This document shows positions 3,431 through 31,794 of a DNA stretch of 64,000 nt, piece by piece. The translations under genes and the position numbers were made by a program. The notes beneath the pieces are model-generated. The model had not been told where the DNA came from. It saw only the letters and a list, made by a program, of their open reading frames with translations, and searched no databases. The stretch is taken from NCBI GenBank assembly GCA_029964075.1, contig CM057140.1, positions 12,914,643 through 12,978,642 of the forward strand. The letters are read 5' to 3'. The DNA is from Patiria pectinifera. Its lineage: Eukaryota > Echinodermata > Asteroidea > Valvatida > Asterinidae. Position 1 is the stretch's first letter. Each line of letters starts with the position of its first letter.

Positions 3431-4400
3431 ATGGTGCAGGGAGCAGCTGTCATCAACTTCCCCTGTCGCTGTTTGTTCGTCATCCTCGTCTTGGTGTTTC
3501 TCATCAGCGAGGTGGGGACGTACAGCGGTGTCCACTACACCCAGCGCGGGGACCTCAACCTCGGGGGCTTGGTGCCTCTCCACGACTACGACGAGAAGAA
3601 CCAAGAGTGCGGCAAGCTTCGCAACATCGGGGCCCTGAAGCGGCAAGAAGCTATGGTCTACGCCGTCGAAACCATCAACCGGAACACCAGCTTACTTCCC
3701 GGAGTCGTCCTGGGCTTCGAGATCTACGACACCTGCTCCTCCAACGCCGTGACGCTCCGTGACTGCTTGAATTTCATCCCGCCCCAGCGGTGGAATGGCA
3801 ACTGCTCTCTCTTCAAGTCCAGCGAGCACTGCCCTGAGACCACACCGCCCATAGTCGGTGTGGTTGGGGCGCAGAGAAGCGGCTCCAGCGTCCAAGCGGC
3901 CATCCTACTCGGTCTTTACCAAATCCCACAAGTCAGCTACCTGTCCACGAGCGACGAGCTGTCCAACATCTACCGCTATCCGTACTTCCTGCGGACCGTT
4001 GGACCCGACAGCTACCAGGTAGCGGCCATAGCGGACCTGATTGTGGAGTATGGTTGGAATTACGTCTCGTTCATCAACTCCGACGACACGTACGGGAAGA
4101 GCGCACAGCAGGCCTTCCGTACGACTGCGCAAAAGCTGGAAGTCTGCATCGCCATCACTCGCACGGTGTCCTTATACGCCACGGACGAGACATTTGACGA
4201 GCTCGTAACCGAGTTGGTAACTCTACAAACGAACAGTCATGCAGCGGTAGTTATTCTCTTTGTTCAACTCGAGATGGCAAAGGACATCTTTGCAGCGGCC
4301 ACCAGAGCTGGGGTCAACCGGAGGTTCATCTGGATCGGGAGCGATGGCTGGGGCAACTATGGGAACAGTGCTGTGGAGGGAAATATTAACGCTACAGTTG
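3431..4400 (+). CDS. mGluR-like receptor, first coding exon 1A (signal peptide and lobe 1)
   Basis: Encodes 323 residues plus one base. The ATG at 3431 (context caagATGg) is the first ATG after an in-frame TGA at 3404. Residues about 12-28 form a hydrophobic signal peptide. The remainder is lobe 1 of the ligand-binding domain, with RYPYFLRTV, GWNYVSF and WIGSDGWGNYG. Compared with mammalian mGluR1 (alignment from memory), the alpha-amino-acid contacts are kept: S150, T173, D193, Y221, D305. R71 matches the glutamate gamma-carboxylate arginine (R78), but G67 replaces Y74. C60 and C102 match the lobe 1 disulfide pair. A longer loop with C125 and C134 sits where mGluRs carry the inter-subunit cysteine. 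The exon ends at donor gtaagt (4401). No matching lobe 2 exon follows before 21.7 kb, so its only visible partner is exon 2 at 29.25 kb. Confidence 0.92.
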
Positions 4401-7400
4401 GTAAGTTTAAAGTTTGTACTTCATTCCTCATGTTCATGAATCTATCATTTCAAGGGATAATTACGTTGTTCTGCTGAAACAAATATTTATGACGTGATAT
4501 TTAGGGGATACACGACGAAGTGATTTCCCCTCCATCGTGATTTGACAGCTATTATAGACAGCTCCTCACAATGTTCATTCGTACTTCACTCGAACATCAC
4601 ACTCAGACACTCTCCGAAAGTACAATGCCAACTTGCCACACTACAAACATTTCCTGCTGTTACGAGCTAAACTGTACTCGTTGAAATGATTCTCACACTT
4701 TCACGATTCGATACGAACACGGATGCTCTCCTAATGAGCACTCTAACACCATACTCTCAGAAATTCAACATTATTCATACACACATCCAAGCACCGCTTC
4801 AAGAGCGCCATATATTTGAAAATATATGGTCGGTATATTTAAGAATACCACGGCTATCTGATGAATACATTTTTGATTAATATATTTTTGACCAACACAG
4901 ATGCACTCCCAATGAGAACTCGAACACCATACGCTCAAATTTCAAACATTACAGCCTAAACATGTATGCCTCCAAGCACCGCTTCAAGAGCGCCGTATAT
5001 TTGAAATGGTCGGTATATCTAAATATACCACGGCTATCTGATTAATATATTTTTGATTAATATATTTTCTTCCTACATCTATTTTTAAATTGAAGGCTTA
5101 TCTTTAAAGTATCACCAAATTAGATAACTGTCCAAAGATTGTAATGTGAAACGAAACAGAAAGACTGGACACGGCAGACAAGAAAGTATACCCACAGTCG
5201 TCGCTAGAAGCCAAAGAAAAGGAAAGATGATTCTAAAGTTTTGGTTTCCCCGATAACCATTTCCCCCCATCCCGAGCCGTCTTTCACGTATTTCGCAAGC
5301 TTCACATTATTCGAAAATGTCATAATCACGAAGCGTTTGCTTTGTCGTCAGAACGGATATTTACACTCAAAATACCCAATCGACATTTATAAACAGACGT
5401 CTGTGGCGAGCTTCCTATGACCATTGGCAACATGACAGACCTAACTGGAAGCAATTTATTTCAGTCATTTCATCAAATAAGTTAACCTTTCAGGCAAAAA
5501 TGAAATTGCCATTTCACGCGAATAGCGTGCCTCGACTGACAATTAATGCTGTAAAATACTAAAAGGACCCCAAAATAACAAAGGATGAGACAGGATCTAA
5601 CAAAAAAGGCAAATACCAACACAAATAAACCTCTTAACAATATAAGAATTTATGTTTTATTTAATTGGCCGACAATGACGTTTTTGAGGTGAAGGATCCC
5701 AGCGGGGCGTGCTCTCGCTAATAGCTTTGAGATTGGTAAGCGGTTTCAAATTTGATTTAAAAATGTGCAAAGCAGGTGCGACTTCTTTGAGAGCGTTGGC
5801 GCGAACCGTGACACCAGGGAAACGGAGCCCCGAGGCAAGGCCCGTTATACGGTTGGAGGGAAATCGATAAATTGACCCTGTCGAGTATCCCTTCCCTTCC
5901 TCTGTTGGCGGGAGGGGGTGTAATTGAGCGAGAAACCAGCTGAATTGTGGTGAAATCAGGGATGAATATACAAATCCTGTAAACAGTTTCCCGTTATATA
6001 CCGAGCCGTATGCTTGCAAATAAGCAAGGGCATCTCTCTAATAAAAACGAAATAGATTTCAGAAAACCGAATGGAATTCAGACAAAGCGGTAATTTGTGC
6101 CACGCGTGATGTTCATATCAATTTTACGGAATGGTAGTCAACGTACGTCGACAACCACTTAGGTATTGGTTCGTTCAAGGACAGATACGGATACAGAATT
6201 ATATACATTTGTGTGTTGTTCCTTGCTTTCATACATCTTTGGTTTATGGTATGAACCTTGTTAGGTGCATCAGACGCCACATCGTCACTTTTTTCTGTTC
6301 CCAGAATCCTTGAACCCACTTGAAGTTGTCAACACAATGCTATCAGTTTGCTTGCGAAGGTTTGATGATAAGGGCAAAAAAGATTAAACAAAGGGTACAT
6401 CGCCTGATAGTCGTAAATCCCTTGTGTGTGAAGATGGCCGTTGGGATCCTCGTCTTCATCCACGCGTTTAAAATGATGTTTGGTACAGGTACCAGTGGTT
6501 CTTACTGGCAAAATTGTTCAGGTCATCTACATGATAAAAAAAGAAAAGAAGGTTGACGTCATGCACACGATAAAACAAAGAAGACACTGTTGCCATCATC
6601 TGCATGGAATTTAAAAAAAAAACCAAGAAAATCTTTTTTTTTTTTTTGAAGTAACCTTTTTGTGAAGACAAGGTTCCTTTAATACGGTGACAGACTTGGA
6701 CAACAGTGACTTATAGGTCCAGACGAAGACCTTAACGATCTCAGAGTCCCGGGTTTGGGACTCCTTTCAGACCTGGGGCAGACCGACCTATGCATTGGGT
6801 ATTTTGTTCTTATCTGATATTTTTTTAGGTTTCCTGCAAAATGTTCAGGGATTTTTTTTCTCCCACCCCAAAACCTCAACATTTCTTTATCATCTACTGG
6901 CTTCCGAGGTACAGTGCGTGTACACTTTGAGGAACCCTTCATGTCAATACCACAAAGAATTAAAATAATTAAAAATGACGTGTTCAATGGAAGTTAAAAA
7001 ATAACAGTAAAAAGACAATCTCAGTCAACCTTGAGACAAGCTTCACATAGCCGTAGCCAAGTTCCGGCGTCTAAAGTATTACTACAAAATATGGACATGA
7101 CTTCTTCTCTTTTTTTAGGCACGCCATTCTGCGGGAACAAAGTAAGTTGCGTGTGAATTCGGGCTTTTGATTAATTGCATTTTATGAATGGACTCCTAAA
7201 CCTGTACCAATAAAACCTACGCATTAGTCAATGGCAATGTAATGACAAGCTATTTAAAATCAGTAGCAAGGAAAGTACAACATGGACGGGGCAATGTCAT
7301 GGAGCGGCTATAAGCACAGAAACTTGCTAAGCACGGACAACATCTGCTTAGCAAAAACAGGTTAACAGCCAAAATGTCATGTAAAAGATACTGATTGTGA

Positions 7401-10400
7401 CTGGTGCTCTGCCGATTTGAGCTAATCGCACAAATCTGCTTAGCAATATTAAGCTTTGAATCAAGACGACGGATGCCGGGGAGAGGGTATCCCCCACTTA
7501 AACATGACTTTGGCCCCACCCACATTTGTTTGACCGCAAGCTATATATAGAGACTGACTCCCTACTAAAAAGTTTCACATTATGGTTATTGCCTTTCCGT
7601 TTTACAGTGTTTTGTGTAATGTTCCCTTTAATGTGGCGAGAGTAAACATTAAAGTCTCCATGTGCTTCAATTAACGCCTGCATAAATTGTCCTCATGAAA
7701 TGTCAGCCGCACAGTAGAGTGTTTTATGGTGTTGATTGTACCTGCCTTGCCAAAGTACAAGCGTCGTTAGCATTTTCAAGTGCCGGATTTCTGCATAAAC
7801 CGAAACATATACGCCGAGGAGAATCTGAGAGATTCAATATCGGAGCAATATTGAATTTCATGCAGATTTTATCAAATACACTGAAATTGAGACTACGATT
7901 GTTATTTTTGGCTATGTTGGGATCAACCTTTAACTTATCCGTTTCCTGCAGTAGTCTGTTTCAATTATGATAATTTTAATTGGTGATGCACTTGATTTCG
8001 TACGCAAGTCAGATTTGGGAAGCTGAAAATTGCTTTTATCGAACTCAAATATGAGTTTTGCTTGTTTGCTTGTCGGTTTGTTTATTTTGCTGTTCTGTTT
8101 TAACGACGAAATGAATTAAATTTCACACGGTTTGTTAACTGTCACACTCGCGCAGTGGTCCCTTAAATTCGGTGATGTAGTGCTTGATACTCGATCAGCC
8201 TTGGCCTTAAGGCCACTTTAAGGCTGGATTTTAAGGCATTGACCTTGAGGGTCAACCCGTGTTCTTGGCCCTGACAGAGCCTTTGCTCCAATACCGCTCG
8301 AATTTACACAGCTAGCTGGGTTTAAAATAGAGTCTACAGTTGCACGCATTACTTACTTCAAATGACTTCTTAAATAAGTACAACAGCGCAGCACACAATG
8401 ACAGTCTTATCTTGACTGCATAGCCTCACTCTGCTTTCAATACAGGAAGAGTCAAGAAGAAAGTGACCAGGATTAGAGATTGTATTCTCTTCAAGCAATC
8501 AAATTGATACACAAATGAAACATGTCTTAAAAGACCATGTTACTGAAATTGACCCATGCCATCAGAATTTATGCCTGTTTTACTAAAAGGAGCCATTTTT
8601 TTAGCTGTCCGCGGAATGCCATTGGAAGCTATTGAGCTGAGTGAGAATTACAGATTACACACAAGAATTCAATTACAAATGGGATTTAAATAATTGAAAT
8701 CAAGACTGAAACATTATTTTTAACGTCAAATTTGGTGTTTTAAGTATGAGGAACAAGTCAACTCTTTTTTCAAATAATGACGGCGATTTTTTGTATGTTT
8801 TCCCTTGCAAGTTCTCGTTCATTCATCGACGTGGGAAAACGTCCATGTTTCATTGTATTTAATGGGTATTCATCAGTTCGTAGAACGGTGAATGATCAGT
8901 GGTGGACAGCCGAGTTGTGTGATCTGTTGATTAAAATAAATGTAGACACAATTCTCATAGGGATGCATGTGAATTGTTTTCGTTTTGTTGAAAAAACACT
9001 TACCATATTTGGGGATCCGTGGACAGAACTTTAAAACGGTGTTTGTGTTCAAAATTCCGCAACTTGAAAAGTACATGATTGATTTGAATGATTCTTGTAC
9101 TAAAAGAAAGCTCATTGGTTGGGCTTTCATATCTTATATTTTTAAAGTGCTACAGGCAAATCTTCATTAAAGAATTGGTCCTGCCATTTGGGTTTCGGGT
9201 GTTTTTTTTTTACTCACCCTGTACTGCAAAACTACTGCACAGTTGACATTGCCATTGTGGCCAAGATTATTAGCCACCTCATGGTGTACGTGTTCGAGTG
9301 AATTGTACAGAGGCAATTAACTAATGAGATGGGCTGCACCATAGCTCATGCCAAGCAAGGCCAACGCTTTAATTTGCGAGCATCAGAATAATTATTTCGC
9401 GATAAAAATTATTGCATAGTTGAGGCTAACTTCATTGTTTGAATTTCCGTCGCAGTGCGTGGAGCGCCTTGTTGGCCTCGTGGTCTGGAGTGAACTCGTA
9501 GACTGCGGGTAATTTTCTGCAGGTTGTGGGTTCGAGTCCAGCCTGGGGTCATGGTGCGTGTAATTGGGCATTGCTTCTCCCCACCCAGGAGTAAATATGT
9601 ATACATGTGAGGGCAGAGATGGCTATTGTGATGAAATTTGAGCTGCTTTGAGCCGAAATGGCTGCATCGAGCTCTACACTCCCAAGGGAGCTGAGATTGT
9701 CTTTGGAAGGTTTCACTGGCCCGGTGATCAGGGGTAATAATAATGTGACGCGCTTTGATCGTAATTAAAAGCGCCATATAAGTAAACAGTATCTATCAGT
9801 ATTATTAAATGTGTTAATAAAAAGGAGTCATACAGAACTAACGACAGATAACGTATGACTCTCCCCTCTTGTAATGTAACTTTCTCACGTCAATGTGAAT
9901 AACTAATCTCTAGTTTCCAAATAGTGAATATTTACCCTAGTTTAGTAAAAACTAACTTTATCCGAGGGACAAGCCGATTCAGTTTAAATTCCATTCAATA
10001 TCAGTCAAGTTTTCACTCGAGTTTTGGCAGTGATCCTTTTTTCAAGTATTTTACCTAAAATTAAAATGGTTTCCGTCTGGTCCCCAAATCGGCCAGTCTA
10101 AATCTTTGGTATTTGGAAAAAAAGGTAGACTTTGTGCCAAATTGAAATTTGACGAATGAAAAATGAAATCTTAAAAATCACACACACACACCAACCCACG
10201 CATCAACTGCTTGTTATTCATCCAGTTCACAATGTAACACGCATACTGAACGAGGTCTTTCGAACGAAATTGGAACAGAGAAACTCTGATGATGTTGAGA
10301 CTGAAAATCGATAGTCAATTTGGAGTAGGCCTACTCTATATTTAAACAAAACAAAAAAGGGAAGAAAAGGTCTTCAATAATATAAACGATTGTCGTACGG

Positions 10401-13400
10401 CTTGGAGCATTTCAGTATTCAATTGCTGCCAGTTACTGAATCCATCAATAAGACCGCAGTTTATTTAGAGTCGACAGAAATCGACTCGACAAACGCCCTC
10501 GGAATTGTGAAGTAGTAACTGATTGACCGTGTGTAGTTGACGCGGCCGTGGTATTATGCAGGGCCGTGTTTTGATTCAATAATCGGCCGGGAATGCAGAC
10601 GGAAGGACGGCCGATAATTCGGTCGCAACGCGCTCGGGCTGCGTGTCCAGCACGTGGCGGGCATTTTAGCCGAGATCTGTAATTGGATTATAGCGACAAT
10701 TACGGGCTCAGGAAACACGGATCGTCGGCGAATAATATGCGTTAAAATACCGACTGAATGGCTAACTGCATTATACAGACAACGCTAACGTCGATGCGCC
10801 GTTCACCGGCCTTGGTTGAGTGACTTTGATGTGAATATCGATCATCAGATGTCGATAGTGGCAGCCGCGCCGAGACCTTGCTGTGAAAATACCGAAGAAT
10901 CTGTTTCTTCACTTACATTGGGTACGACAATAGAAAAAGAATACATTTTTATTGAAAAATAAATTTCTTTCTATGATATGAGCTACACTCTTTTATGGGA
11001 CTCAAAATTGAAGGCCGAGGTTTTTTTTTTGGGGGGGGGGGGTTGTGGGTTTTGGGGGTTTGGCTACGTGCGAAAATTGATAATTACGTTATGATATGGA
11101 GTTGGACGCCGATTCAAATTTGAAATTAACTAAATATTGAATACCTATCATGACACAGTGTCTGTGTGATATGTCATTGAAAAGCTCGTATATTATTTAA
11201 TTCTGAAACCTTTCAATGTAACAATTTATAATTCGGGGTACATCAAAAACACTAATATACGAATGTTACAAAACAGGAGAATCGCATTGGTTTAAAAAAA
11301 AACTCCAATCTGCGACAAAATGGCGAAGAAATTTTAAAATTTAAGTTTCTCCATTCCGGTGTTTACGAATGCGGTGTGCTCCTCCCTGAACGGTGCGAGG
11401 GAGCGCAGTTTCAGAATCTGACTCCTGAGCAAGAAAAAGAGACATACTTTTTTCTCCCAATGTTTTGATAAGCTTCAGTTTAGGCTAGCTCTCTTGAAGA
11501 TGAGCAGCAACATTGATTTATGGGGCTATTTTTAAGATGACGGATAAACATGCGTGTCTGTCACTGCCCAGTCATCCAGATGGAGAAATTCTTCTCCTAA
11601 GTGTCGAAGGAGTTATATACGACGATGATATGATTATTAAAATGGCCGTTTACTTGACCAAGCCGGAGTTTATTTGTACAAATCTCGTGGGTGACAGCTC
11701 AGTGAATTTGTCAAAGTGTATGTTGCCTTTGGGACGGCTTAGAATGTATGAATACGAGGTGCGTGAGAGGAGCATCCACAGCTCGCAAACGATCTCTTCT
11801 TTTCTTTTTCTCAAGCGAACATTTTACTCGTCTGTCTTGTCAGTTCGTGCCTATGTACTTTACAGTAGTTGTCAAAGCGAACATAACGTGACACTTGCCT
11901 CGCCTGTATAGAGTGTCCTGTCACTTACAAAATCACAATAAGAGGAAAACACCTGAAGTAAAGATGTTTAAGAGATGAATTATTCCCAAAGTCGCAGGTT
12001 CGAATCCACTGCCAGTCCATCTCTCTGTTTAATCTGATATTGATTAAACGTGAACCATGTCAGTTTCCACTGTAATTTTATTAACTTTGACAACGGTTTT
12101 TCGTCGAAACAAACTTTATGTACTTAATAAACAGTAACAATAAGAATCACATGAACACTGCAAAAACTGCCGTTTAGTTTATATGTATTGGTACTGGTTT
12201 TAGTTTATCATCTCATTGTCTTTTGCAGTGCACAGGACAGTGTTGTAAAACGGATTCATCACGCATCCTTTGTCGATATTTTCGGTTCGATGAAACAAAA
12301 GGCCCCATGCCCCTACATATAAAAATGTGGGCCGGGTCGCTATAAAACAAAACAGCTGGCAAATTCAAAACCACTGTGTTCAATGAGACGCACATCATTT
12401 TTGTTTGACTTCATAATTATCGTTGCTCATTCTCCTTGCACCGTTATCATTTTCAGCAAAGAACGAAGGCGTACAGGTCGAGAAATCACAAAATTGAATG
12501 AGAAATTCTAACTGTGGCTCATGCTTGTCTCGTGATTTGACTTGCGTTTGACTTACGACTGACTTGTGATTGATTTCACTTCAATTCTGACTCGCAAACT
12601 GGGAATAATAACCATGAAGAAATGCCTGCAATCGCAAAAATACGGCACAATAATTTTTATTACGGAAAATGGTACCTTTTGAGACATTCCCATAGACTTG
12701 TGCACACACACAAAATCCGAACTTTAATTGACACCTATAAACTTAACTCGTTTTGCATCACGAGGAATAGATATTCGCGACGATAAAATTATGAAATAAA
12801 GGACTTGAGACATTTAGGAAGACACTCAGATGTCTCCCTAACCTTTCTTGTCTCCCCAAGGTGCAATATTTTGCCGCGAGGTAGCAGCTCAACAAATTGT
12901 CATGTCTCTCCGTTGGTCCGTTAGCTATATGGTAACAAACGTTGACATTGTCTATTGCTCCTACTTATTTTGACCGATTTCAACCAAACTTTGTTCAAAG
13001 TAGTAGCCCGGCCCCAACATGTCACATGCCCAAACTGGGGTCAAAGGTCATTATGGGCTCACTGCGGTCAAAATTCTGATTTGTTTTAAACTCAAAACAC
13101 TGTTCCTGCCAGAAATTACATGGCACAATTCCGTGACTTATGCATGAAAACGAATTCGTTGGCCCGCAGTTTCCGAGATATTCCCGATCGAGTTTTTTTT
13201 TTATTTTTTTTTTTAGCAAAACCTGTCTCTAAACTCTAAATAAACGGGCCATTTGCCAGAATTTCACCGAGTGTAAGATATCAGATCTGTCCCTGACAAA
13301 TGTTGACAGCGTGTGATGTTTCATTTCAGCACTGGGCTGTGTGTACCCACTAATGACTTCCACCGGTTGGCTTGGTATACGCTTAATGAGTCCAAACGCA

Positions 13401-19400: not shown

Positions 19401-22400
19401 CTCCAGGAGGATTGAGTTCGACGCACTAGATAACCAACCCACGGAAACAATGGGTCGCCCTACATCGCTTACCACTTTGATAATGCAAACTCTGTGGTGA
19501 AAGTCAACGAACAGATATCATCAACATCTTCAAGGAGTCACCTCTTTATAGTTAATGCGACGAACCAATCAGTGAAACACGGTACAGTTGACATTTTCTA
19601 GACTTGCAATATTAATACACACGCCCGGAGAGGTACTACATCATAACCGTGACTTTTAGCGAAATTGCTCCCGATGTACCTAATGAGTTTCGCTCGCGCT
19701 CGGCGTATTTGAAATCAAAATCGATGCCTGTTTTACCGATTAACACAGTGGGCCTGATACGTGTACATATCCCATTGCCATTTGTCATTGCCAAGCGCTG
19801 GTGTTTGGGGCAGACTAATTGTTACTGATACATACGGCACGGTTGCTTTGTAGTTTGATATCAACCCAAATGAACCCACGGCCCTTCGCCTACTTTAGAG
19901 AAATCGTTCTATGGTTAAAGGCCTTTCAGCAACGTAACAAAAAAGAACTCAATAAACTCATTCGTTGCTCCCTTGTTCTGGGCTGTTCATGGTGTGTACC
20001 CATGATCACTTTTGAACTGAAATCCATGCGGTTTTATATAAAGGTTTTCCCGGTAATTGTAAAACAACATTTCGTGCGCTCCACTCTTTTTTTTTGTTGT
20101 TGCTCGAACTCATTTCTTGCGCTCGAAATAATAAACTAAAATTATGTTTACAGGTGTGAAATAAATTTTCGAATGTTCCTTTAAAAGCTCCGTATTTCTG
20201 GGCTCCATGTTCTATAGGTGTTTGGAAGGGATCCCACTGCACTGCTTGAGAGTGTGTGTGTCCCCCCCCCCTTAAAAACAAATCCTGGCAACGCCCATGT
20301 ATGGGTTTTATTCACGAGTCGGCCATATTAAATTGAAAGCCAGGTAAAATCTTCATTGTTGGAACTTGCGAGGAGACATGAAAGCAATGGCATTAAGGTA
20401 ATTACAAATTAATTCCAATCGGCTCTGATGAATAATTTAAAATGTGTGATTAGGCCTAAACATACCCTAATGTTTGAAGCCATAAAAAATAATTGACAGT
20501 CAGGCTAGAACGAATAGACTGGTACCATCCCATTCAACAGTTCACAATTTATCAAATACATTCAGGGATCACGACCACAAATGGCTTCATCGTGAATAAG
20601 TTCAATGGTACACAGCAGTCTTCATTATGTATCTCAGGCAGGAAAATCTATAGACATCAGGCCTATTAACGGCCGGGAAAAAAATACCCAAAAAAGCAAA
20701 AAATACGCATGAGGGATTTCCCCATAGGCCTTTGCGTAATGAAAATCGGTCGTTCGACTGGAGAGATAGTGCGGCCGCATGTGTCTTGGGGCACTTTAGC
20801 GAACATTGAGCCGAAAGTATTAAGAGTGACAAGGCCTAGAGGCATCGGTCTACAAAAAAAAGGTGCGGGTATGCCTTCTCTGGAGTGGAAAGCAATCAAC
20901 TACTGATTTATTTTGAAATCCAGGAGAAAAGTGTTTTCAGGCAGGTTGAAAATCAGCGCATGAGGTCAAGAGAAACACTTTACATTTTGCTCAGGTCCAG
21001 CATAGGCCAAAAGCATCAGAAATGCGCGGTCACATCAAACTTGGCAACAATCCAGCGATGTCAAGATTTCTATAAAAAGAAAAACTACTTCTATTACAGG
21101 AGGAATTGCTTCCGAGGAAAAACGTGACTGCATGTTGTTCATAAAACTTCATTATTTATTTTTCAAGGACGCTTCCTTGTTTTAGAGCTAGCTGAACGAC
21201 CCACTCGAAAAGAAAAAAACAAAACAAAAATCAAGGACGAACGCAGCCACATTCTCTTTCGGAATGGTTACTTCCTGGTATATTAAGAACCACTTTCCCA
21301 ATTCAGCATTTTATTACAGTCACACTGGCGCGTGCATGATGCGTTCATCACATGATTCTATCATCATTTCACTTTCGTGCGGTTTGGCAACTTTTCAGCA
21401 TTATCCAGCTTTATAATGGCATTATCTATTATCATACATTAACCAAAGTCCAAACGACTGAGCCATTTGTACAGAGCAAGTGCACCGATAAATTATTCAC
21501 CCAAAACGGGCGGCGATTCGTGAGACGTAGGATGGTTGGCGCGGCTTAACCTGATGAGTGAATTTTTTTTAAGAGTACCTTATTAAAATTGACTCTAATC
21601 GGTAGGGCAAACTGATCAAGTGCTTGTGGTGCCTTTGCGACGACTGGCACACATAAGAGACTTTCTCACGACCAAGGGGAGGTCGATGTATGCATCGGAC
21701 TCGTCGTAGCAAGTGAAGATCATCAACTATGGCGTGTGTTGCGTTTCGCTCACTGGGGTGCTTTCTGGTGGTTCTGCGCCTGTCGAGTTTGAGTCTTTGT
21801 GAAGAGGTGGCGAGTCCCTGTGGTAACCAGGACACTGGTTATATCCAGGAAGGAGATCTGATGATAGGAGGACTTATACCTCTTCATTACTACAACCTGT
21901 CGGAAGATGGTCTCTGCTCCCCGCTTCGGTCCATCAAAGCTCTGCGTGAAGTCGAGGCTATGGTCTACGCTATCAACTGGATCAACAGGAACCAAACGAT
22001 CCTGCCCGGGGTGCGACTTGGATACCACATCCGAGACACCTTCTACTCGGTCTCGGCCACTCTCCGCAGCAGCCTCAATTTCATTCCAGTGAGCGGGTTC
22101 GGTGACCAGGACCGGCCGGTTGTTGGGGTCGTCGGTGCCCGCCGGAGCAGCTGCAGCGAGCAGGCGGCCATCCTTCTAGGTCTCTACCGGATGCCCCAGG
22201 TCAGCTACCTCTCCACCAGCGACGTCCTGAGCAACAAGAACCGCTACCCGTACTTCATGAGGACCGTCAGCCCCGACATCTACCAGGTCGAGGCCATCGT
22301 GGACCTCCTGATGGAGTTCAACTGGTCCTACGTCACCTTCATCAGCTCGGACGAGATCTACGGCCACAACGGGCAGCAGGAGTTTCAACGCCGCAGCACC

Positions 22401-25400
22401 GGGGGCGACATCTGCACCTCCATGTCGAGCTACCGGACCGTGTCGCCCTTCGCCGACCAGGGGGAGTTGGACGCGATGATCCAGGGTTTGCTGGATCTCC
22501 AAGCCGACACCGACTCGGTCGTCGTGGTTCTCTTCGTGGACATCGAGCTTGCCAGAAAGATTTTCCGGGCGGCTCACCGGGTGGGAGCCCAGAGACGGTT
22601 CATCTGGATCGGCAGTGACGGATGGGGAAACTACGGCGAGGCTGCCATCATTGGATTCGAGGAAGCCACTGTCGGTAAATATTACCAACTAAAAAAATAT
22701 CCTTTCACTGAAACAAAAATATTATTTTCAAAATCTATAAAATGTTGGGAAGAAATGTTGAATATTCCAGTTCCATCAATTTTTTTCTGGAAAACTCTCT
22801 TTGCTGAAGACAGTACATAACTGTTCTGAATACTTCAATGATGCAGTATAGTGCGTCCAAACTGCCCGCAACACAAGTGTACACAAAGAGTAATACAATT
22901 CATGGCCCTGTCGTTAGCATTGTGTCATATTTTAATTAGGGATATCTAAATATACAAAAACAATTCTATCAAAAAAAATCTCTTAGCCTTACATGAAGTC
23001 CCTTTATCTATAACAGACCATTTACTCAAAAATAAAAACATGATACACATGTATAGTCATATAGTTCAGTTTTCCTCGTCTATTTATATTATTCTTTCGA
23101 CAAAAACGTTCACTCTACATGGTGAGTCAAACACCGAAACCCTAATGTCGGGACCATTGTTTTAGCGAAGTTCTGCATGTAGCACATTCAAAATCTAGGA
23201 TATGAAAGCCCAATTAATTAGCTTTCTTTTAGTAAAAGAATCATTCAAATCACTCAAGTAATTTTCAAGTAACGGCATTTTAAACACAACCACCGTATTA
23301 AACTTCCGTCCACGGATCACAAAAAAAAGGCTTGTGTTCTTTCAACAAAACGAAAAATATTCACACACATCAATATGTGAATTGTTTTCGTTTTGCTGAA
23401 AGAACACTTACCTTTTTTGTGATTCGTGGACAGAACTTTAAAACGGTGTTTGTGTTCAAAACTTGAAAAGTACATGAGTGATGTGAATGATTCTTGTACT
23501 AAAAGAAAGCTTATTAATTGTGCCTTCATATCCTAGATTTTGAAAGTGATACACGCAGAACTTCATTAAATAATTGGTCCTGTCATTTGGGTTTCCTTTC
23601 TTTTGACTCACCTGTAGAATAAGAGTGAAAGAGAAATTAGCAGGTGGGTTAAATAATTGATAGTTTTTATCCATGGCAGGAGATCATGCGTGTAGTTACT
23701 GTTTACTCTCACATACCACGCTATATTCCCCACGAAGTCGTATCTATAATTATGTTGAAACACGACAAGCATACACTGCGTCACACATCAAACATGTAAT
23801 AGGTAACATGTGGTAACCGCAAAAACAGTCATAGAAATTATCGAGTCTTTTCAATGAAAGTGTTTGATGCGACGTTTTTAATTCAATTCACGTTTTTCAT
23901 CTCAATATTTATTTCCATATTACAAAATGTACATTCAGATAATTATACAAAAGGTCGATATAAGATAGATATTTGATGAAATACAAGAACAATAATTATG
24001 TAAGACACAAATGAAACAGATGCAATTATGAAGGCATATTTAAAAGACGTCTTATATAGAAATGCCTTTTTAAGACCAAAAGAAATGGACAAACAGAACT
24101 TTAAACAGATCGTACAGGAAAGACAGAGAACGGAACAGGGCTGACAAAACAAACAAAACAAAAACGAACCAACAATCTGGGATGTACATGTTTTGAAAAC
24201 GAGAACCTGGAATACTTGAAACTCTTAGAAAAGAAAGCGGATGAAAAAAAATAGAATGATAAAAGAGAAGGACCTACGTTAGATAATCGAAGACAAGGTG
24301 TTTTTTTTAAGAAGTTCTTAAAACATCCCACAGATGAATGCACATGTAATTTAATATTACTATCAATACTATTCCAAAGACGAGGTCCATAGAATCTCAA
24401 TGTGTTTCGGGAATATTTTATTTTGGTGTTTGATTTTGAAAGCAATTTTTGATGTAAACATCACCTGCTGATGAATTTCACATCAGTAAAACAATAATAC
24501 TGTCTATCTAAATTAATCGTTGATGAATTAAGTCAATAACCAAATCGATAACAAAATTGTATCCAGATAGATTCAACCACAGCCAAAGCGATGATTTTAG
24601 GTTTTCATGTCAGATATGGTAGATTGACTAAGTTAAAATTTAACAGCCGGAGGCTACACCGGCTGACAACATATTTTGAAAGGATCTACCGAGTGGTTGA
24701 AAAAGTGACATCAATTATTTGTCAGAAAAAAAAACAATGTCATTAGAGAGACATTCCCATAGACTTGTGCACAATATTGTTTCCAACTTTAATGACCCCT
24801 AACCCCCATTTTACCTTATCCTACCCCCATGAATTTTGGTATGTTTACTAATTGGACCACGAGCGATCGATCTAGCCCATTTGCGACGGTAAAACTTTAC
24901 CTCTTAGGGGCTGAGGCATTAGGGAGACATTGAAATGTCTCCCTAATTCCACATGTCTCCAAAATGTATAATTTATGACGCTAGATTGTCTCCCAAAGGT
25001 CCTATTTTGTGGTTGTAATAATTGTAATAAAAAATTTATAACGCGCCTTAATCATTAACAAAAGGTCGCGCTACAATGATAAATAATTCATTAGAATGAC
25101 AATGAAAACCAAAAAGGACAATGAACTTATGAGCAAAAAAAGACCAAGAAAGCCAAAAAACCTGTACAAATACAAGATAGAAAACACAGACACTATACTA
25201 AAAGAAAGTGCCAACAAGGCACAAACAATAATCGGCTAAACAAAATCGCATGTATGCCTACATTCCAAAAACACAGATGCCACTGGAGTTAATCAAAAAA
25301 AAACATTTTTTAAATATGGAAGGAAAATGAAACTGATCGTCATAAGCTCCGTAAGTGACTGTGGCCAAATGGCCTAAATTTGCTAAACTCATGTTAGATT

Positions 25401-28400
25401 GGCGTAGCGGTACGTTCCTTGCCTTCCACCACTGTTTGCTGGCGGGGATAACATGTGGATTCATTGGGTTTTCAGTCCCTGCCTGATTCCGTGGGTTTTT
25501 CCCAGAATAGTCTTGGGCGTTTCCTCCAACGTCTACAACTGTAATCTCTTCACACTGTCTGCCCTTTACTAGGCCCCATGTGAGACCAGCGGATTCCACT
25601 GAATGGGCTACCCAGTTATAAATTAAGCATGAACTAAAATAAACTATAGTTTTACTGTCAAACGCTGATCTCTTAAGTCACTTTTCCTGTTTCTCTGCAT
25701 TTTCAAGGCTGTCATCCTCTTTATGGTTTCTGTAGCGTTGTTGACCCCACTGCCATACTTCTGAGAACGAGGTGCTCAGACACTGGGGACGATCCCAGAC
25801 TGCGTTCCTCTCTCCTAAACAGGCTTACTATCGACCACTTGATGTTTCTCCCCATTTGTCCTCCAAATCTATCAAAGCCGTACGCGCCGAAAGGTCCCCC
25901 ATTGTTATCCTCCAATATAGCATCGGTTTCCAAGATCAACATCCATTACTGGAAAAAGCAACTGGAGAGTTGACAAATCCATCACTAGGGCCGGTAGCCA
26001 TGGCAACTCCTCTCCAACCACTAGGCAGTTCCGGTTGCTGTGTGTTTTTCCTATTTTTTCCCTTCTTTTTCTTAAAAGCTCTGCATTTAGCCCCTATAAA
26101 TCATCCTTGTTATTGTGAACTACTGCCTACTTGAAATGTTTTAGCAAGATCGGCGGTTCGATCTCCCGCGTTTTTTTCTTTTCCCGCTATTTCCCCCGTG
26201 TACATAATTTATATAGGTGAACTCAATTAATCTCCGTAATGGAATAAAACACTAAGTCAGCTTTCGTACGAACAGAAAGACACACTAACGGTTGAGATAA
26301 CACTGGGTTATTATTGTGCAAATACCACGGGGTCACTGCAAGAAAAAAAAATGATAAAAGTTTGCTATTATAAAGATCACTTACTCACCTGCATTGAACA
26401 ACAGACCGTCAAAACTTTCGTTTTTAGTTCTCGTTATTCACGTTGCCAGGTAAACGAAGTTAAAGCTATATAGACATAGGCCCTATATACAGAATTACAA
26501 CATTTTACATTGAGAGTTAAAATGTTTAGCTGCATGATGGAGTCCGGTTGGTGTAGCGGTACTTCCCTCACCTTCCACCGCCGTGACCCGGGTTCGATTG
26601 CTGCCCTAGTCCACATGTGGATTGGGTTTTCAGTCCCTGCCTGATTCCGTGGGTTTTTCTCACAACTTTCTTCTGGCGTTTTCCTCCCACATCTCTATAT
26701 ACTGGGAACCATGGGAGCCAGTGGATCCCACTGAATGGGCTTCCCAGTTTAAAAAAAAAATTTTTTAATAATAATGACAATAATAAACTGCACAACCTTT
26801 CGTTATAATCACAAACACTCCAAAACAAACTTGGTATTAGCTAATATCTTTACACCATACAGATCCGAACCAGTCAAGTGGTTCATATTATAGACATGAC
26901 ATGGTGTTGAATTTACACGGAGCTGTCTCGCGAGTAAAACATCTGGTTGGAAAAGTTAGTTACGAAAAATACACTAATCAAAAGATGTAAATTTAGGGTG
27001 ACAGGCCTTTAAATACACTGACGTTCATCTTTTGACCTGTTTACCCAGTTTACAGTAATGAGCAATCAAATAAAACAAAACAGCGTGGTGTTTGACATTA
27101 TTAAAATATCCAGGCTAATAGTGTCAATATGTTAGACGGAGTTGCTATTTCTGTGTTACAAATTGCGATAACAAAGCATATTTACGACGACATCATTGGA
27201 ACATTTGAGGAAAATGAAATCTATTAGGTTTGCAAACCATCCAATGCGGTTGCATTCATATATGCATTGGCAGCAATAATTGTGCTAATTATTAGAAACC
27301 ATGTTTGTTAAATGTCAAACGCCCTTGGCTAACGAAAGGAAATTGAAATTAAAACATGGACAAATCCAGGGAACAAAAACATCTGCTGGTTTAACCTTCT
27401 GCGTTCGAACGTATTTCACATTTACAATCGCATTATCACGATCGGCAATGAAGCTAAAGGACATGCTGAATCTGGGTTAAACATTGAATACAGGCATTGA
27501 AAATAGGCATTGAAGTTAGTGACATCACAGGTGAGAGTGGCCCAAGTACACTTTACACCCTTTCACTTAATCGATTGTATTTCTGGATCTAGGGACCCAA
27601 ATGGAATGGGGTAAAATGGAGTGGATTGAGACATAGTCAGGCTCTAATGTAATATATAATTTTTATTGAAGAAAAAAAACCATTAAACAGTTTTAATTAT
27701 TTGTTTTCTGAATGTTGCACATGTTTCGGCACATTCTGTATAGGCCATTGTACCGGGGGCCTTTTATGTTATCGCGACTGCTTTTGCATAAAAATTCTAA
27801 CCGAACTTGGGGTCTATAGGCACGGAAACTAATCAAATTGAATGACAAAATTGACAAGTTATTCATTATGTGACGTCTTTTTTCCCCACACAACCCTTCA
27901 TTTTTTTTCATATCGGTATGTCAAGCAAGGGGAACATCAGATAGCAATGATGTATAGCCAATTCCTAGCAATTTCAAAAGGTACGTGCGAGCCGACCTCA
28001 CAAAGCGAACGAGATTTTGCGAGAATGTAGAAGCGCAAAGGAGCTACAAAGTCTGCGTTCTGATACGGCGTCGCCGTCTCTATACAGCAAATGGACAAAC
28101 TCAGCACTGAAGTCGGAAGAAACTTTATCGAATTTTACAGCACGTACAACACGCTGTCGGGGGCTGTCGTATACATTGCACGCGATTATTGGTTAATGAC
28201 AAAACAGGGCTACTTGCTGTTCACCATCGAAGGTCCTTCTTTTCTGCCAAATTCCCGCCGTCTGGCATCGTCTACTTCAAATTCTTGTTAGAATATTTAC
28301 AGGTGAAATCAACCAGCATGAATTTAATTCATCGCATTTACTGTCACTTAACTTCCAGCATTTTTTCAATGTCCACCAAAAGTGAATTGAGTGTTTCTGT

Positions 28401-31400
28401 AATTTGACAATTTACTTCAGAATGTTTCGACTCCCGTCTAATTCAATATCTTGAGAGACGAAATAATGGACCGATCCAGTAAGCCCCGCCCACTGCGCAC
28501 TGGGCAAATTAACACGTGCTCCTCTCCAATGTCACACTGCATTTTCCTGCCGCGCGCTTCATACGCGCGTGCACGCATGTCGGACTTTTGTGCACGCACG
28601 TCGGACATAAATCGCGGCTGTGATTGGTCAGAACACCATTGGGCGGTGCTTACTGGATCGGTCCATTGTTAAGGGAAGGTTGCTTTCAATTTTGATCAAC
28701 TTAGCAATTACGACAGTTACGGCCCTGCAAATCAGCCATCCGGGGCCATCACGAGTCAAAACAGGTCTATCACAAATCAAATCACGAGTCAAATCACAAG
28801 TCTATCACAAGAAAAGGTAAACGGTAGCAGGGGGAAAAACAGTGACAAAGAAATGTCTTTGTCACAGTTTTGGGACACCTGTTTGTGCTGGAGGTCCAAC
28901 GAGCTTGCGACATGACTCGGTATACTGAATGACTCGTTAGAGACTTGTGATAATAGACATTTATCATGCTGACACCATTTCAGTCATGTTCCCTGTATCC
29001 AATAACAGTACTGAATGACATTTTTTGTGCATAAAGGAACCAGACTATTTTCCCTCCCAGTCTCGCTTTGGTCACGTTGATTTAAATAGGAAAAAATCAA
29101 GATGGCCGCAAACATGATAATGGTCCATGAAGGCATGTTAAGGAATGAGAACACCATAACTACCGACTATGATAATAGTTTTGACTCATTACTTCGCAGG
29201 TCTCTTTCTAAAAAGTTTAAAATATTCTCTTCTTTTTATTCAACGCTGCAGGTGCATTCACATTATCTCCTCTGTCGCGGAGATTGGATGACTTTGACGA
29301 GTATTTCCACTCCCTGAACACGTCCAGCAATAACCCTTGGCTGCGGGAGTTCCTCGAGAAGTACACCGGCTGCTCCTTGGATGGCTGCGACGAGCCGGGC
29401 CTGATCCAACTAGCGGACGACGGTAAAGTCGCCCACGAGACTCTGGTCATGGACTCCGTCTTCACCTTCGCGCACGGCCTAGACCGCATGCGCCGTGACC
29501 TTTGCCCCGAAGCAGAGGAAGGGCTGTGCTCCAACATGACAGACATTGACGGGGACGTCTTGTTGACATATCTGCTTAAGACCGAGTTTGAGAGCCTCGC
29601 CAACGGGTGGATCAGCTTCACAGACAGTGGCAACATGTACGGCAGGTATGCCGTCAACCACTTGGAGATGAACGAGACTACGGGAGAGTACACCTTCCAG
29701 CTGGTGGGCGAATGGAAGCAGTCCACGGACCCAGATGTCCCGAATCTCAAGATAGAATCGGGGTTACCCTGGTACCTCTGGGACGGAGCATCGGTAGATC
29801 CCACCACGGGGATACCGAGGTCGGTTTGCAGCGACCCTTGCAAGCCCGGGGAGAAGATCAACAGCATCCCGGATAACCTATGCTGTTGGACCTGCACCCC
29901 CTGCGAACAGTCCGAGATTGTTGCCGTCAATGGCACCAGCTGCGAGTCCTGCATCGACGTGGACAACAGGAGGTTCGCCTGGCCAAACGCAGACCAGACG
30001 GTCTGCGTGGCCATACCTTCGGACTTCATACTCGGGGAGCAGGCATGGGCCATCGCCATTATCACGGTGGCCTGTGTGTGCGTGGTAGCCACCATCTTCA
30101 TCTTGGCCGTCTACATATACAACCAGGAGATGCCACTCATCAAGGCATCAAGCCGGGAGCTTAGCTACATCATCTTCCTCGGCATCCTCCTCTCTTACAT
30201 CACGGCCATCGTCTTCTCCATCGCTCCTTCTCCTTTTGTCTGCGTCCTCCGACGTCTTGGTCCTAGTATAGCAGCGTCATTCATCTATGCCTCCATAGCT
30301 ACCAAGACGATCCGTCTCTTCCGCATCTTTACAGCATCCAAGAAATCGGCCAAGAGGCCGAACTACATCGGGTCTATGTTCCAGGTGGTCTTATCACTAT
30401 CCGTATCAGCACTAGCGGTAAGTAGACCTTTACCAAATTTAACCTTAAGAGAAAGCCTATTTGAAAGCAAAAATTCTAAAGATGACATGCTTTTAATCTA
30501 CCCTCATGGCTGCCCAGTACACAGCTGCATTGATCAGGACATTGAACCTGGAATGGTGCATGCCTTCAAAAAACGTTGAATGATTCAATTCATTTTCATT
30601 ATTTTGTGAGACATATTATGTTTTGTGAGGATTTGAGTACATCTGTGGGTTGAGTGGCTCCAATATTTGGGGTTTCACTTCACGGGTGGGGAGTTGCTGA
30701 AAATTCTTATATCTCTTTGCAGGTGATTTGGACTGTGGTTTGGCTGATCGTCGACCCTCCCATCGTTATCCTGGAGATGCCCAACGAGAGGGAAAACAAG
30801 CTTCAAGTCACCTGCCAGCTGAACATCGTGGAGACGGTCGGTGTCATGGTCTGGGACGTGGCACTCATCATCGTCTGCTGTATCTTCGCCTTCATGACCC
30901 GGAAGCTTCCAGAGAACTACAATGAGACACGCTTCATCACTTTCTGCAGCTTCTGCACGCTGGTGGTCTACGTCACCTTCTCGCCAATCTACTTCACCTC
31001 CAAGGAGCCGTACTACCAGGCCAGCTACTACTCCGCCGGCCTCATCATCAACGCCACTGTCACCCTGACCTGTCTCTTCGCAGTCAAGATCTACGCCTTG
31101 TACTTCGTGGATGAGGATGAGATGAACATCTTTACGCAGACGCGGCTGCGTGCCAATACCAAGACGTCTTCGGGTCGAGGTATTCAGTTCCCGACGACCT
31201 CCTCCTCAGGTGCGAATGAGGTCCACTTCAACCCGAACTATGTGACCGAGACGGGGAGGTACTTGTCTGCACCCGGAGTGGAGGCTACCACCGATGTCAA
31301 CCTGAATGAGGAGAATCGACTCCGTAGCAGCTCCAACAACAGCAGCAAGAGCAACAACAGCCGGGCGTCCAGCGCCGGCGGTGGCGTCATGGAAAGACTG

Positions 31401-31583
31401 AGGGGGACCAATAAGGTTGACCCATCTGACACTACGTCAGAGTCACGTGACACTGCTCGGCCCAATGGCATCGCGACACTTGATAAGGTTGTCAGGGGTC
31501 CAGGTAAGGCCTCGCCGTCATCCGCAAAAGAAACTAAAGTCTTCTTCAGTCCTGACGTTGTCGAATGTGACACGCACATGTGA
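3431..31583 (+). CDS. mGluR-like class C GPCR gene (whole locus, two alternative first coding exons)
   Basis: This locus encodes a plasma-membrane receptor of the metabotropic glutamate receptor type: signal peptide, bilobed Venus-flytrap domain, cysteine-rich domain, seven membrane helices and a serine-rich tail. Coding exons are 1A (3431-4400) or 1B (21729-22674), then exon 2 (29252-30417) and exon 3 (30723-31583). Both first exons end in phase 1 after ATV plus a G, and exon 2 begins in the matching phase. Exon 2 to exon 3 is phase 0. Spliced lengths are 2997 nt (998 aa) with 1A and 2973 nt (990 aa) with 1B, both without internal stops. Class C receptors signal through G proteins as dimers. 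The ligand is uncertain because the side-chain-binding residues for glutamate are altered. The alternative to shared exons is that 1A is a stranded partial duplication. The family call is sure; use of both first exons is inferred. Confidence 0.9.
4700..5075. repeat. Diverged tandem duplication just after exon 1A
   Basis: Two copies of about 185 bp share CACCGCTTCAAGAGCGCC, ATACCACGGCTATCTGAT and TTTTTGATTAATATATTT. It lies in the long intron, 300 bp after the exon 1A donor. Confidence 0.7.
5080..7280. other. Intron of the receptor gene, nothing recognised
   Basis: No coding similarity, no clear repeat copies. Small open frames here look accidental. Confidence 0.45.
7285..7465. repeat. Partial MITE of the GCTTAGCA family
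   Basis: Contains CTTGCTAAGCAC, CTGCTTAGCAAAAACAGGTT and ACTGATTGTGACTGGT, matching copies near 37.1, 55.6, 56.1 and 57.3 kb. Confidence 0.55.
8944..9223. mobile_element. Truncated MITE with TA-CAGGGTGAGT ends, copy 1
   Basis: The right half of a foldback element that ends ACTCACCCTG-TA at 9223. It shares AATGATTCTTGTACTAAAAG and TGCCATTTGGGTTT with copies at 23.1 and 62.7 kb. The left end is missing. TA flanks suggest a Tc1/mariner-type origin. Confidence 0.7.
9460..9790 (+). mobile_element. tRNA-derived SINE, family A, copy 1
   Basis: The head carries a Pol III box B (GGTTCGAGTCC, 9529-9539) after GTGGTCTGGAG. The body is shared with 16.95-17.26 kb (GGTCATGGTGCGTGTA, GGGAGCTGAGAT). The tail ends GCGCCATATAAGTAAA. 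Confidence 0.8.
9791..12670. other. Receptor intron; CpG-rich patch at 10.53-10.89 kb
   Basis: No exon recognised. The patch at 10530-10890 is unusually GC/CpG-rich for an intron and not seen as a repeat elsewhere in the window. A G run lies at about 11031-11042, and a lone box B-like GGTTCGAATCC near 11998. Confidence 0.4.
12675..12865 (+). repeat. Dispersed repeat with GAGACATT ends, copy 1
   Basis: GAGACATTCCCATAGACTTG at one end and TCTCCCTAACC at the other, shared with copies at 24.74 and (inverted) 36.47 kb. Confidence 0.6.
12866..14660. other. Receptor intron, nothing recognised
   Basis: AT-rich, with homopolymer runs near 13193-13215 and 14468-14488. No gene or repeat copy was identified. 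Confidence 0.4.
14664..15090. repeat. GAGTAC-based minisatellite with a higher-order unit
   Basis: Hexamers GAGTAC/GAGTAT/AAGTAC alternate with TTTGCCATGAG and TTTCCATGAG spacers. A composite unit of roughly 85 bp repeats from 14664, 14748 and 14834, then about 115 bp on at 14949. Confidence 0.9.
15248..15612. repeat. (GAGTAC)n hexanucleotide array
   Basis: About 360 bp of near-pure ACGAGT/ACCAGT hexamers. All frames are open, giving spurious STSTST or LVLVLV peptides. The same motif builds the array 160 bp upstream. Confidence 0.95.
15620..16950. other. Receptor intron, nothing recognised
   Basis: No exon or clear repeat seen. Confidence 0.4.
16955..17262 (+). mobile_element. tRNA-derived SINE, family A, copy 2
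   Basis: Box B GGTTCGAGTCC at 17031-17041, preceded by GTGGTCTGGA. The body matches the copy at 9.46-9.79 kb, including TCTCCCCACCCAGGAG. Confidence 0.8.
17263..18885. other. Receptor intron with a CACGTG cluster
   Basis: CACGTG palindromes at about 17331, 17345 and 17455. CCCTACCTACCCTATTTT-like segments occur at about 17617 and 17783. No exon recognised. Confidence 0.4.
18890..19135. repeat. Dispersed element with palindromic end, copy 1
   Basis: Shares the imperfect palindrome around GGCCGACCAGCGTTGG, ACGGGTACAAGCCAGCTAG and GGTCAGGGAACCAG with an inverted copy at 46.84-47.08 kb. Confidence 0.7.
19140..21728. other. Region upstream of exon 1B, no promoter recognised
   Basis: No repeats or exons identified. 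No convincing TATA box lies just upstream of the exon 1B ATG (only a weak CTTATTAAAA near 21580). The exon 1B promoter or an upstream noncoding exon should lie here if 1B has its own start. Confidence 0.4.
21729..22674 (+). CDS. mGluR-like receptor, alternative first coding exon 1B (signal peptide and lobe 1)
   Basis: Encodes 315 residues plus one base: its own ATG (context aactATGg), a signal peptide of about 24 residues and a complete lobe 1. It is roughly half identical by eye to exon 1A, with blocks such as AAILLGLY and PQVSYLSTSD shared. The donor gtaaat at 22675 cuts at the same protein position and phase as exon 1A. The residues expected to hold the amino-acid backbone are present: S140, T163, D183, Y211, D297. 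At the side-chain end, K70 replaces Y74 and E74 replaces R78 (mGluR1 numbering, aligned from memory). C63 is present, but its usual partner is F105, and the loop carrying the inter-subunit cysteine is short and cysteine-free. The reading frame is intact and GC-rich, so it looks like a functional exon, not a pseudogene. Confidence 0.92.
23116..23616. mobile_element. MITE with TA-CAGGGTGAGT ends, copy 2
   Basis: Starts TA-CATGGTGAGT and ends ACTCACCTG-TA, with inverted halves sharing AAATCTAGGATATGAAAG and its complement. About 500 bp, in the 1B-to-2 intron. Confidence 0.8.
24101..24445 (-). pseudogene. LINE reverse-transcriptase ORF, C-terminal remnant
   Basis: The minus-strand peptide contains YSRNTLRFYGPRLWNSIDSN and FKNFLKKT, the usual end of the ORF2 polyprotein in Jockey/CR1-type non-LTR retrotransposons. 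The upstream polymerase and endonuclease are absent, so it is a 5'-truncated copy. It sits in the receptor intron. Confidence 0.7.
24744..24995 (+). repeat. Dispersed repeat with GAGACATT ends, copy 2
   Basis: GACATTCCCATAGACTTGTG at the start and GGGAGACATTGAAATGTCTC near the end; the middle matches the inverted copy at 36.47 kb (TTAATGACCCCTAACCCC). Confidence 0.65.
25396..25620 (+). mobile_element. tRNA-derived SINE, family B, copy 1
   Basis: GGCGTAGCGGTA head and the body TTTTCAGTCCCTGCCTGATT CCGTGGG, shared with 26.54 and 60.36 kb; ends near ACTGAATGGGCTACCCAGTT. Confidence 0.75.
26541..26755 (+). mobile_element. tRNA-derived SINE, family B, copy 2
   Basis: The head GGTTGGTGTAGCGGTA and box B GGTTCGATTGC (26590-26600) form a Pol III-type promoter. 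The body and end (GAATGGGCTTCCCAGTT) match copy 1. Confidence 0.8.
26760..28460. other. Receptor intron, nothing recognised
   Basis: AT-rich; no exon or repeat copy identified. Confidence 0.4.
28464..28670. mobile_element. Short MITE with 27-bp inverted ends
   Basis: ATGGACCGATCCAGTAAGC and CCCGCCCA at the left end are mirrored as TGGGCGG and GCTTACTGGATCGGTCCAT at the right end (near 28641-28667). The interior is CpG-rich. No coding capacity. Confidence 0.8.
28958..29118 (+). repeat. Dispersed repeat CAGTCATGTTCCCTGTATCC, copy 1
   Basis: Shares CAGTCATGTTCCCTGTATCC, GGAACCAGACTATTTT and AAATCAAGATGGCCGC with copies at 35.29, 45.09 and 58.02 kb. It ends about 130 bp before receptor exon 2. 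Confidence 0.75.
29252..30417 (+). CDS. mGluR-like receptor, shared exon 2 (lobe 2, cysteine-rich domain, helices 1-4)
   Basis: The acceptor ctgcag at 29246-29251 is preceded by a pyrimidine-rich tract and gives a phase 1 join to either first exon (ATV-G-AFTLSPLSRR). It encodes the rest of the flytrap domain (FDEYF, FAHGLDRM, LCPEAEEGLCSNM). The cysteine-rich domain starts near residue 514 of the 1A form with SVCSDPC, followed by CCWTCTPC and SCESC. Membrane helices 1 to 3 and the start of helix 4 follow; KASSRELSYIIFLGI and ATKTIRLFRIF are typical of mGluR helix 2 and the end of helix 3. The cysteine before helix 3 is kept. The mGluR lysine that contacts glutamate (K409) aligns with threonine in NMTDIDG. 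The donor is gtaagt at 30418, phase 0. Reading through the intron gives a stop at 30577. Confidence 0.93.
30723..31583 (+). CDS. mGluR-like receptor, shared exon 3 (helices 4-7 and C-terminal tail)
   Basis: The acceptor atctctttgcag ends at 30722, phase 0, joining VSALA to VIWTVVWLIVDPP inside helix 4. It encodes the extracellular loop 2 cysteine (QVTCQLN), helix 5, the third intracellular loop (MTRKLPENYNETRF, close to the mGluR loop), helix 6 with TFSPIYF, helix 7 and a tail of about 130 residues rich in S, N and T. The class C helix 7 motif, usually xPKxY, reads AVKIY here, so the proline is lost. The tail ends DTHM, only a weak class I PDZ-type ending. The stop TGA is at 31581-31583. A weak poly(A) candidate ATTAAA lies at 31870-31875, after a foldback repeat in the presumed 3'UTR. 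Confidence 0.92.
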   Translation: MIWTVVWLIVDPPIVILEMPNERENKLQVTCQLNIVETVGVMVWDVALIIVCCIFAFMTRKLPENYNETRFITFCSFCTLVVYVTFSPIYFTSKEPYYQASYYSAGLIINATVTLTCLFAVKIYALYFVDEDEMNIFTQTRLRANTKTSSGRGIQFPTTSSSGANEVHFNPNYVTETGRYLSAPGVEATTDVNLNEENRLRSSSNNSSKSNNSRASSAGGGVMERLRGTNKVDPSDTTSESRDTARPNGIATLDKVVRGPGKASPSSAKETKVFFSPDVVECDTHM

Positions 31584-31613: not shown

Positions 31614-31794
31614 TAAATACGGGCGATTCACAATAGTGCGCCTCCAAGAGTTTGCAACGCGTTGGCCAATCACAATGCGCGAAATCAGTCGACCTTTTCC
31701 AAACGCGCATTGGGTCGACCGATTTTGCGCATTGTAATTGGCCAATGCGTTGCAAACTCTTGGAGGCGCACTATTGCGAAACGACCGTATTATA
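31614..31794. repeat. Foldback element (long inverted repeat) in the presumed receptor 3'UTR
   Basis: Two arms of about 78 bp (31616-31693 and about 31717-31792) are near-perfect reverse complements, including GCGCCTCCAAGAGTTTGCAA and its complement, with a short spacer. It begins 31 bp after the stop codon. It resembles a MITE or foldback transposon; flanking ATA/TATA hints at a short target duplication. If transcribed, it would form a long RNA hairpin. Confidence 0.8.

Follow-up and report, generated by a model that had tools for sequence, protein, structure and literature searches.

The 64 kb stretch of Patiria pectinifera DNA analysed here (64,000 nucleotides, hereafter the window) carries on its plus strand a gene with the layout of an mGluR-type class C G protein-coupled receptor, in which Pfam recognises a Venus flytrap, a nine-cysteine domain and a 7tm_3 region. 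Exon 1A (3431-4400) holds a start codon, a hydrophobic N-terminus and the N-terminal two thirds or so of the flytrap, and ends in the phase-1 donor GTT G/GTAAGT (the slash marks the exon boundary). Exon 1B (21729-22674), an alternative first exon laid out like 1A, ends in the phase-1 donor GTC G/GTAAAT. Shared exon 2 (29252-30417) encodes the remaining flytrap, the cysteine-rich domain and the first half of the seven-transmembrane region (7TM), while shared exon 3 (30723-31583) encodes its second half and the cytoplasmic tail, with the stop codon at its end; their acceptors have 12 and 13 pyrimidines out of 16, respectively. The ANF_receptor profile scores 183 bits in 1A and 164 bits in 1B, and in the two body exons NCD3G scores 42 bits and the 7tm_3 halves 92 and 83 bits. 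Over 307 aligned residues, 1A and 1B share 52.8% identity. In both, a glycine codon is split after its first base and restored at the single exon 2 acceptor (CTGCAG/GT at 29252), and when the exons were joined by script, 1A with the body gave an uninterrupted protein of 998 amino acids and 1B with the body one of 990. The earlier note on this DNA had stated that the two first exons stop at the same residue in the same phase, that they join in frame to the only nearby body exons and that no body exon lies in the 17 kb between them, and all of this holds, the last point according to tblastn. It had also given each exon a start codon, a signal peptide and a full lobe 1. The start codon and a signal-peptide-like stretch are indeed there (the label is putative and based on a hydrophobic N-terminal helix), but "lobe 1" has to be abandoned, as each exon encodes about two thirds of the flytrap and most of both lobes.

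In a structural model of the homologous Acanthaster planci isoform X2, in which the flytrap aligns over residues 36-496 or so, the exon junction falls at 315/316, and the first exon is predicted from this model to span most of both flytrap lobes and to end just before an internal strand. Nine of the ten ligand contacts examined, mapped by alignment, are encoded by the first exon. The four exons have a GC content of 0.735 to 0.765 at third codon positions, compared with 0.41 overall for the sequence between 1A and 1B. In our judgement, a chance origin is excluded for two intact homologous open exons of about 320 codons that end at an equal codon and phase. The locus shows two features of a variable-first-exon gene: homologous first exons stand in tandem and bring a start codon each, and they end in equal phase and can be joined to one constant exon set, a single body having been found near the locus (150 of 254 candidates scored). 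We considered 1B as an internal exon and rejected this, since the 428 bases upstream of it contain no good splice acceptor (no AG with at least 11 of 16 pyrimidines). No common promoter motif was found in the 2 kb upstream of 1A and of 1B, where blastn-short returned only matches of 10-11 bases (E of at least 0.77).

Several other features were noted in the window. One dispersed repeat occurs at 9008-9205, 23134-23324 and 23460-23604, in both long introns and in both orientations. The sequence at 31616-31791 is an inverted repeat whose 79-base arms are 91% complementary; it starts 32 bases past the stop codon of the receptor and could be a 3′ UTR fold or a small mobile element. Further downstream we observed a G-rich minisatellite at 41489-42114 (13-base unit GGGTGGGGTTGAG, about 49 copies) and a tandem array at 43494-44723 (335-base unit, 3.7 copies, 91% matches). 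On the minus strand, an exon of a radical SAM methylthiotransferase of the MiaB/RimO family was found at 60902-61318; its best match is MiaB and by eye it resembles CDK5RAP1, and its score falls below the full-length cut-off of the family, as expected for a single exon.

When both joined proteins were compared with the 64 kb by tblastn, we recovered the four exons, the cross-match between 1A and 1B and a single 21-residue row (E 9.9), and no other receptor sequence was found in the window. The search was then extended to the species' own genome (613,548,705 bp in 1020 contigs, in which the window is C12:12914643-12978642). There, all 88 lobe-1A candidates were scored and gave 60 matches; near the window these are just 1A and 1B, and the next match on the same contig ends at 12511596, that is, 403 kb before the window. 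No third lobe-1 exon was found by this search in those 403 kb, and the longer array of first exons upstream, which the earlier note had thought possible, was rejected. For the body, at least 141 PF00003 matches were obtained from the 150 of 254 candidates that were scored. Besides the two body exons, the nearest one listed on the contig has its end at 12523061, which leaves 392 kb to the start of the window, and no second 7TM body near the locus was found among these matches. We also looked for a second body concealed in the interval from 4400 to 29252, and neither tblastn nor the PF00003 search (150 of 254 candidates scored) detected one; the separate lobe 2/7TM set for 1A that would have undone the earlier note's proposal was not found near the locus among these matches. 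The genome holds a large class C receptor family, with at least 141 exon-level 7tm_3 matches and many stronger ones on contig C5.

The same pair of first exons occurs in other starfish. With 1A as query, the A. planci "metabotropic glutamate receptor 3-like" isoform X1 showed 82% identity and isoform X2 51%; with 1B as query, the best local alignment to isoform X2 reached 77% and the Patiria miniata model P0006 reached 98%. Isoforms X1 and X2 (P0001 and P0005), which NCBI predicts as isoforms of one gene, have identical last 683 residues and differ upstream, where one is of the 1A type and the other of the 1B type. They appear to lie on one contig of 4450310 bases. In P. miniata we found a long model of the 1B type (P0006) and a short model of the 1A type (P0076, 98% identical to 1A), both apparently on one contig of 48504769 bases. 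A third pair, P0078 (1A type) and P0091 (1B type), would share a contig of 21200 bases, which from its place in the tree presumably comes from a starfish. A search of related species had been proposed in the earlier note, and it yielded both exon types in A. planci, in P. miniata and on the 21200-base contig; counting the window, no fewer than four genomes have the 1A type. The central proposal, that two first exons for ligand binding can be exchanged on a common body, is supported by the A. planci isoforms, by the presence of both types in P. miniata and on another contig, and by the consistent pocket difference described below. Between the window and P. miniata, 6 of 323 aligned residues differ in 1A, 7 of 315 in 1B and 12 of 675 in the body (about 98% identity), and between Patiria and Acanthaster 1A is 82.0% identical, 1B 74.0% and the body 84.2%. 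Leaving the NCBI models aside, we recognised none of the 108 distinct matches as a spliced transcript of a starfish that carries 1A or 1B; two "lgn" matches, P0008 and P0012, look spliced from the length of their contigs but group with sea cucumbers in the tree.

The phylogeny of the first exons was built from 42 rows and 276 columns, with ten rows of the 1A or 1B type, P0077, P0078, P0091 and P0096 among them. All ten fall in one clade (98/96), within which the five 1B rows form a group (100/100) whose stem, at 0.72, is long, and the five 1A rows another (80/70). Brittle-star, feather-star and other rows, together with starfish paralogues, lie outside this clade, and the outgroup lobes are nearer to 1A than to 1B (56 versus 48% for Amphiura, 54 versus 44% for Antedon). 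The tree and the outgroup likeness together point to one duplication of the first exon in the starfish line, before the split of Patiria, Acanthaster and the species of the 21200-base contig. Type 1A would so have retained the older type, while 1B appears to have changed fast and then been kept less strictly. Among the short models P0076-P0099, 23 of 24 extend to the junction glycine, one of which, P0086, continues into a body of its own; P0076 is the one model in the 24 that leaves the junction glycine codon by splicing. The residue after the junction glycine, read by eye, is lysine in 13 of the 24, presumably a GGTAAR read through. That related models break at the same point is a stronger argument against chance than the intact exons themselves, and it suggests an old exon unit of which 1B is apparently a copy. 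In Amphiura filiformis, the models P0002, P0086 and P0107, which appear to lie on one contig of 66532044 bases, each continue after the junction into body sequence of their own, which suggests whole-gene tandem copies, not first-exon copies.

In the body tree, the gene belongs to a 20-row invertebrate clade (100/99), outside an 11-row set (90/84) that includes mGluR3. Because vertebrate mGluRs are represented in this tree by a single row and its T1R3 root is long, the receptor class is only loosely settled; with that one row as reference, the gene does not group with mGluR group II (mGluR2/3), and the tree does not support 1A or 1B as an ordinary mGluR3 orthologue. The term "mGluR3-like" is a nearest-name label only.

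The ligand pocket was mapped by alignment and is given in mGluR3 numbering. We take S151, T174, D194, Y222 and D301 to be the contacts with the amino-acid backbone, and mGluR3 Arg68 and Lys389 to be the equivalents of mGluR1 Arg78 and Lys409. The five backbone residues are identical in all ten 1A and 1B rows. At the R68 site, which faces the glutamate side chain, we found Arg in all five 1A rows and Glu in all five 1B rows; the site is Arg or Lys in the closest outgroup rows (Amphiura, Antedon and kin) and variable in more distant ones. The R277 site is Gln in the five 1A rows and Asp in the five 1B rows, and none of the ten keeps R64, which is replaced by Gly in the 1A rows and by Lys, Gln or Thr in the 1B rows. 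Of the 295 columns compared, 18 show a fixed difference that separates the 1A rows from the 1B rows; the charge changes in four of these (positions 68, 149, 177 and 277), with one reversal, at 68. Two of these four are named contacts and two lie near 151 and 174 in the chain. As this charge comparison was made after the sequences had been seen, it is a strong lead and no test. The usual flytrap disulfide pair, which we take to be C57-C99, also differs: Cys99 is replaced by Phe, with Cys57 kept, in 1B of the window, P. miniata and Acanthaster, and is retained in the other two 1B rows, so that this disulfide may be rewired in the 1B forms that lack Cys99. The shared body has His at the Lys389 site (mGluR1 409), and the side-chain pair that binds glutamate, Arg68 with Lys389, is therefore incomplete in both products, the Arg occurring only in 1A. 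In mGluR1, Arg78 and Lys409 are described as critical (PMC6307864). With Gly at R64, Gln at R277 and His at K389, 1A would not form a canonical glutamate site and need not be a glutamate receptor. Both forms should bind an alpha-amino acid backbone and prefer different side chains, and 1B should disfavour glutamate; judging by charge, our guess for the ligand of 1B would be a basic amino acid.

The readings in which 1A does not feed the receptor body have to be weighed against this. One of them, which we regard as unlikely, takes 1A for a gene of its own that makes a short secreted flytrap fragment, leaving the body to 1B. It arises from a possible alternative terminal exon on the plus strand at 5160-5230, which would add a 23-residue tail and then a stop and which matches the end of P0076. 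Indeed, this NCBI model of 346 amino acids, whose prediction may rest on reads, is exactly 1A plus a small terminal exon, its tail is encoded unchanged at 5159-5227 of the window, and an AATAAA stands past the small exon at 5624-5629. However, the window contains 114 copies of AATAAA when its two strands are counted together. The acceptor of the small exon is poor, with 5 pyrimidines out of 16 where the body exons have 12 and 13; 92.5% of the 3469 plus-strand AG sites in the window have 5 or more. The short product would also stop inside the flytrap without its later strands and helices and should not fold as a domain, 1A keeps Cys240, whose presumed partner is a body cysteine, and the A. planci annotation joins 1A to the body. 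A short 1A protein and a 1A-body receptor could both exist.

It is very improbable, in our estimate, that 1A is the decaying relic of a tandem gene duplicate that has lost its body. Its position, farther than 1B from the body and separated from 1B by 17.3 kb in which tblastn found no receptor sequence, is what such a relic would show, but 1A has an open frame and an intact donor, its identity to A. planci is 82.0%, as compared with 84.2% in the body, its type persists in at least four genomes, the window included, and the outgroup lobes are closer to it, not to 1B. Finally, an assembly error that joined two genes, or collapsed copies, and dropped a second body, a possibility raised in the earlier note and allowed by an assembly in 1020 contigs, is effectively ruled out by the same exon pair in A. 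planci, in P. miniata and on the 21200-base contig (contig sharing being presumed), and no second body exon near the locus appears among the at least 141 PF00003 matches from the 150 of 254 candidates scored.

We thus favour, as very likely, one mGluR-like class C gene in which two alternative first exons on a shared body would give two receptors that differ in the ligand pocket. Each first exon would have its own transcription start, and the phase-1 donor of the chosen one would be spliced to the single acceptor at 29252, as the splice sites and the NCBI models indicate. Since a first exon lacks a splice acceptor, a transcript should carry only one of them. The predicted products have in common everything after the junction, from the remaining flytrap and the cysteine-rich domain to the 7TM and the cytoplasmic tail. 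Because of this shared body, both are expected to signal through the same G protein, and they might dimerise with each other. Their pockets would differ by Arg at the side-chain site in 1A as against Glu there and Asp at a second site in 1B, and the gene probably yields two receptors for different ligands. Only tentatively do we go further and suggest opposite charge preferences set by promoter choice, 1A taking an acidic or neutral amino acid and 1B a basic or amine-bearing one, with mixed 1A/1B dimers acting as coincidence detectors in cells that use both exons.

The closest known case is the A. planci pair X1 and X2 itself, which has the same products, a 1A-type and a 1B-type lobe on one identical body, in a different genus and as predictions. 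The logic of the gene is that of UGT1, UGT2A and the clustered protocadherins as outlined in PMC1885805, where human UGT2A has just two variable exons and UGT1 a distinct promoter before each variable exon. However, UGT1 and UGT2A encode enzymes, proteins unrelated to the starfish receptor, for which per-exon promoters are a prediction. Drosophila Gr39a is a chemoreceptor gene whose four alternative 5′ exons give isoform-specific N-terminal parts, according to PMC6307266; in this member of the insect Gr family, the variable part comprises the N-terminus and six transmembrane segments, whereas in the starfish it lies in the extracellular flytrap. We therefore read the locus, by analogy with UGT1, UGT2A or Gr39a, as a candidate for promoter-chosen ligand specificity. 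Vertebrate mGluR2 and mGluR3 share with the starfish receptor the flytrap, the cysteine-rich domain, the 7TM and the backbone contacts, and the A. planci X2 structural model matches mGluR structures. In contrast to them, the starfish body has His for Lys389 and 1B has Glu for Arg68, and in the body tree the gene lies outside the mGluR3 set. In the open-licence papers searched we found no description of alternative first exons of this kind for an mGluR or other flytrap receptor, and no paper on the A. planci isoforms. The novelty claimed in the earlier note stands for that literature and fails for the databases, as the NCBI models already hold the isoforms; as far as we searched (open-licence literature), the anatomy had been recorded by machine and not discussed in print.

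If this reading is true, the ligand specificity of a class C receptor would be set by the choice of first exon while its coupling stays constant. The locus would then be a natural domain-swap experiment, a direct test of what share of the flytrap determines which ligand is bound, and a two-member starting point for the origin of variable-first-exon clusters. An mGluR3 of A. planci, which we do not equate with the gene studied here, is reported as male-biased in sensory tentacles by RNA-seq and RT-PCR (PMC6267866). For ligand switching in the chemosensing of starfish, the gene described here would be a concrete candidate.
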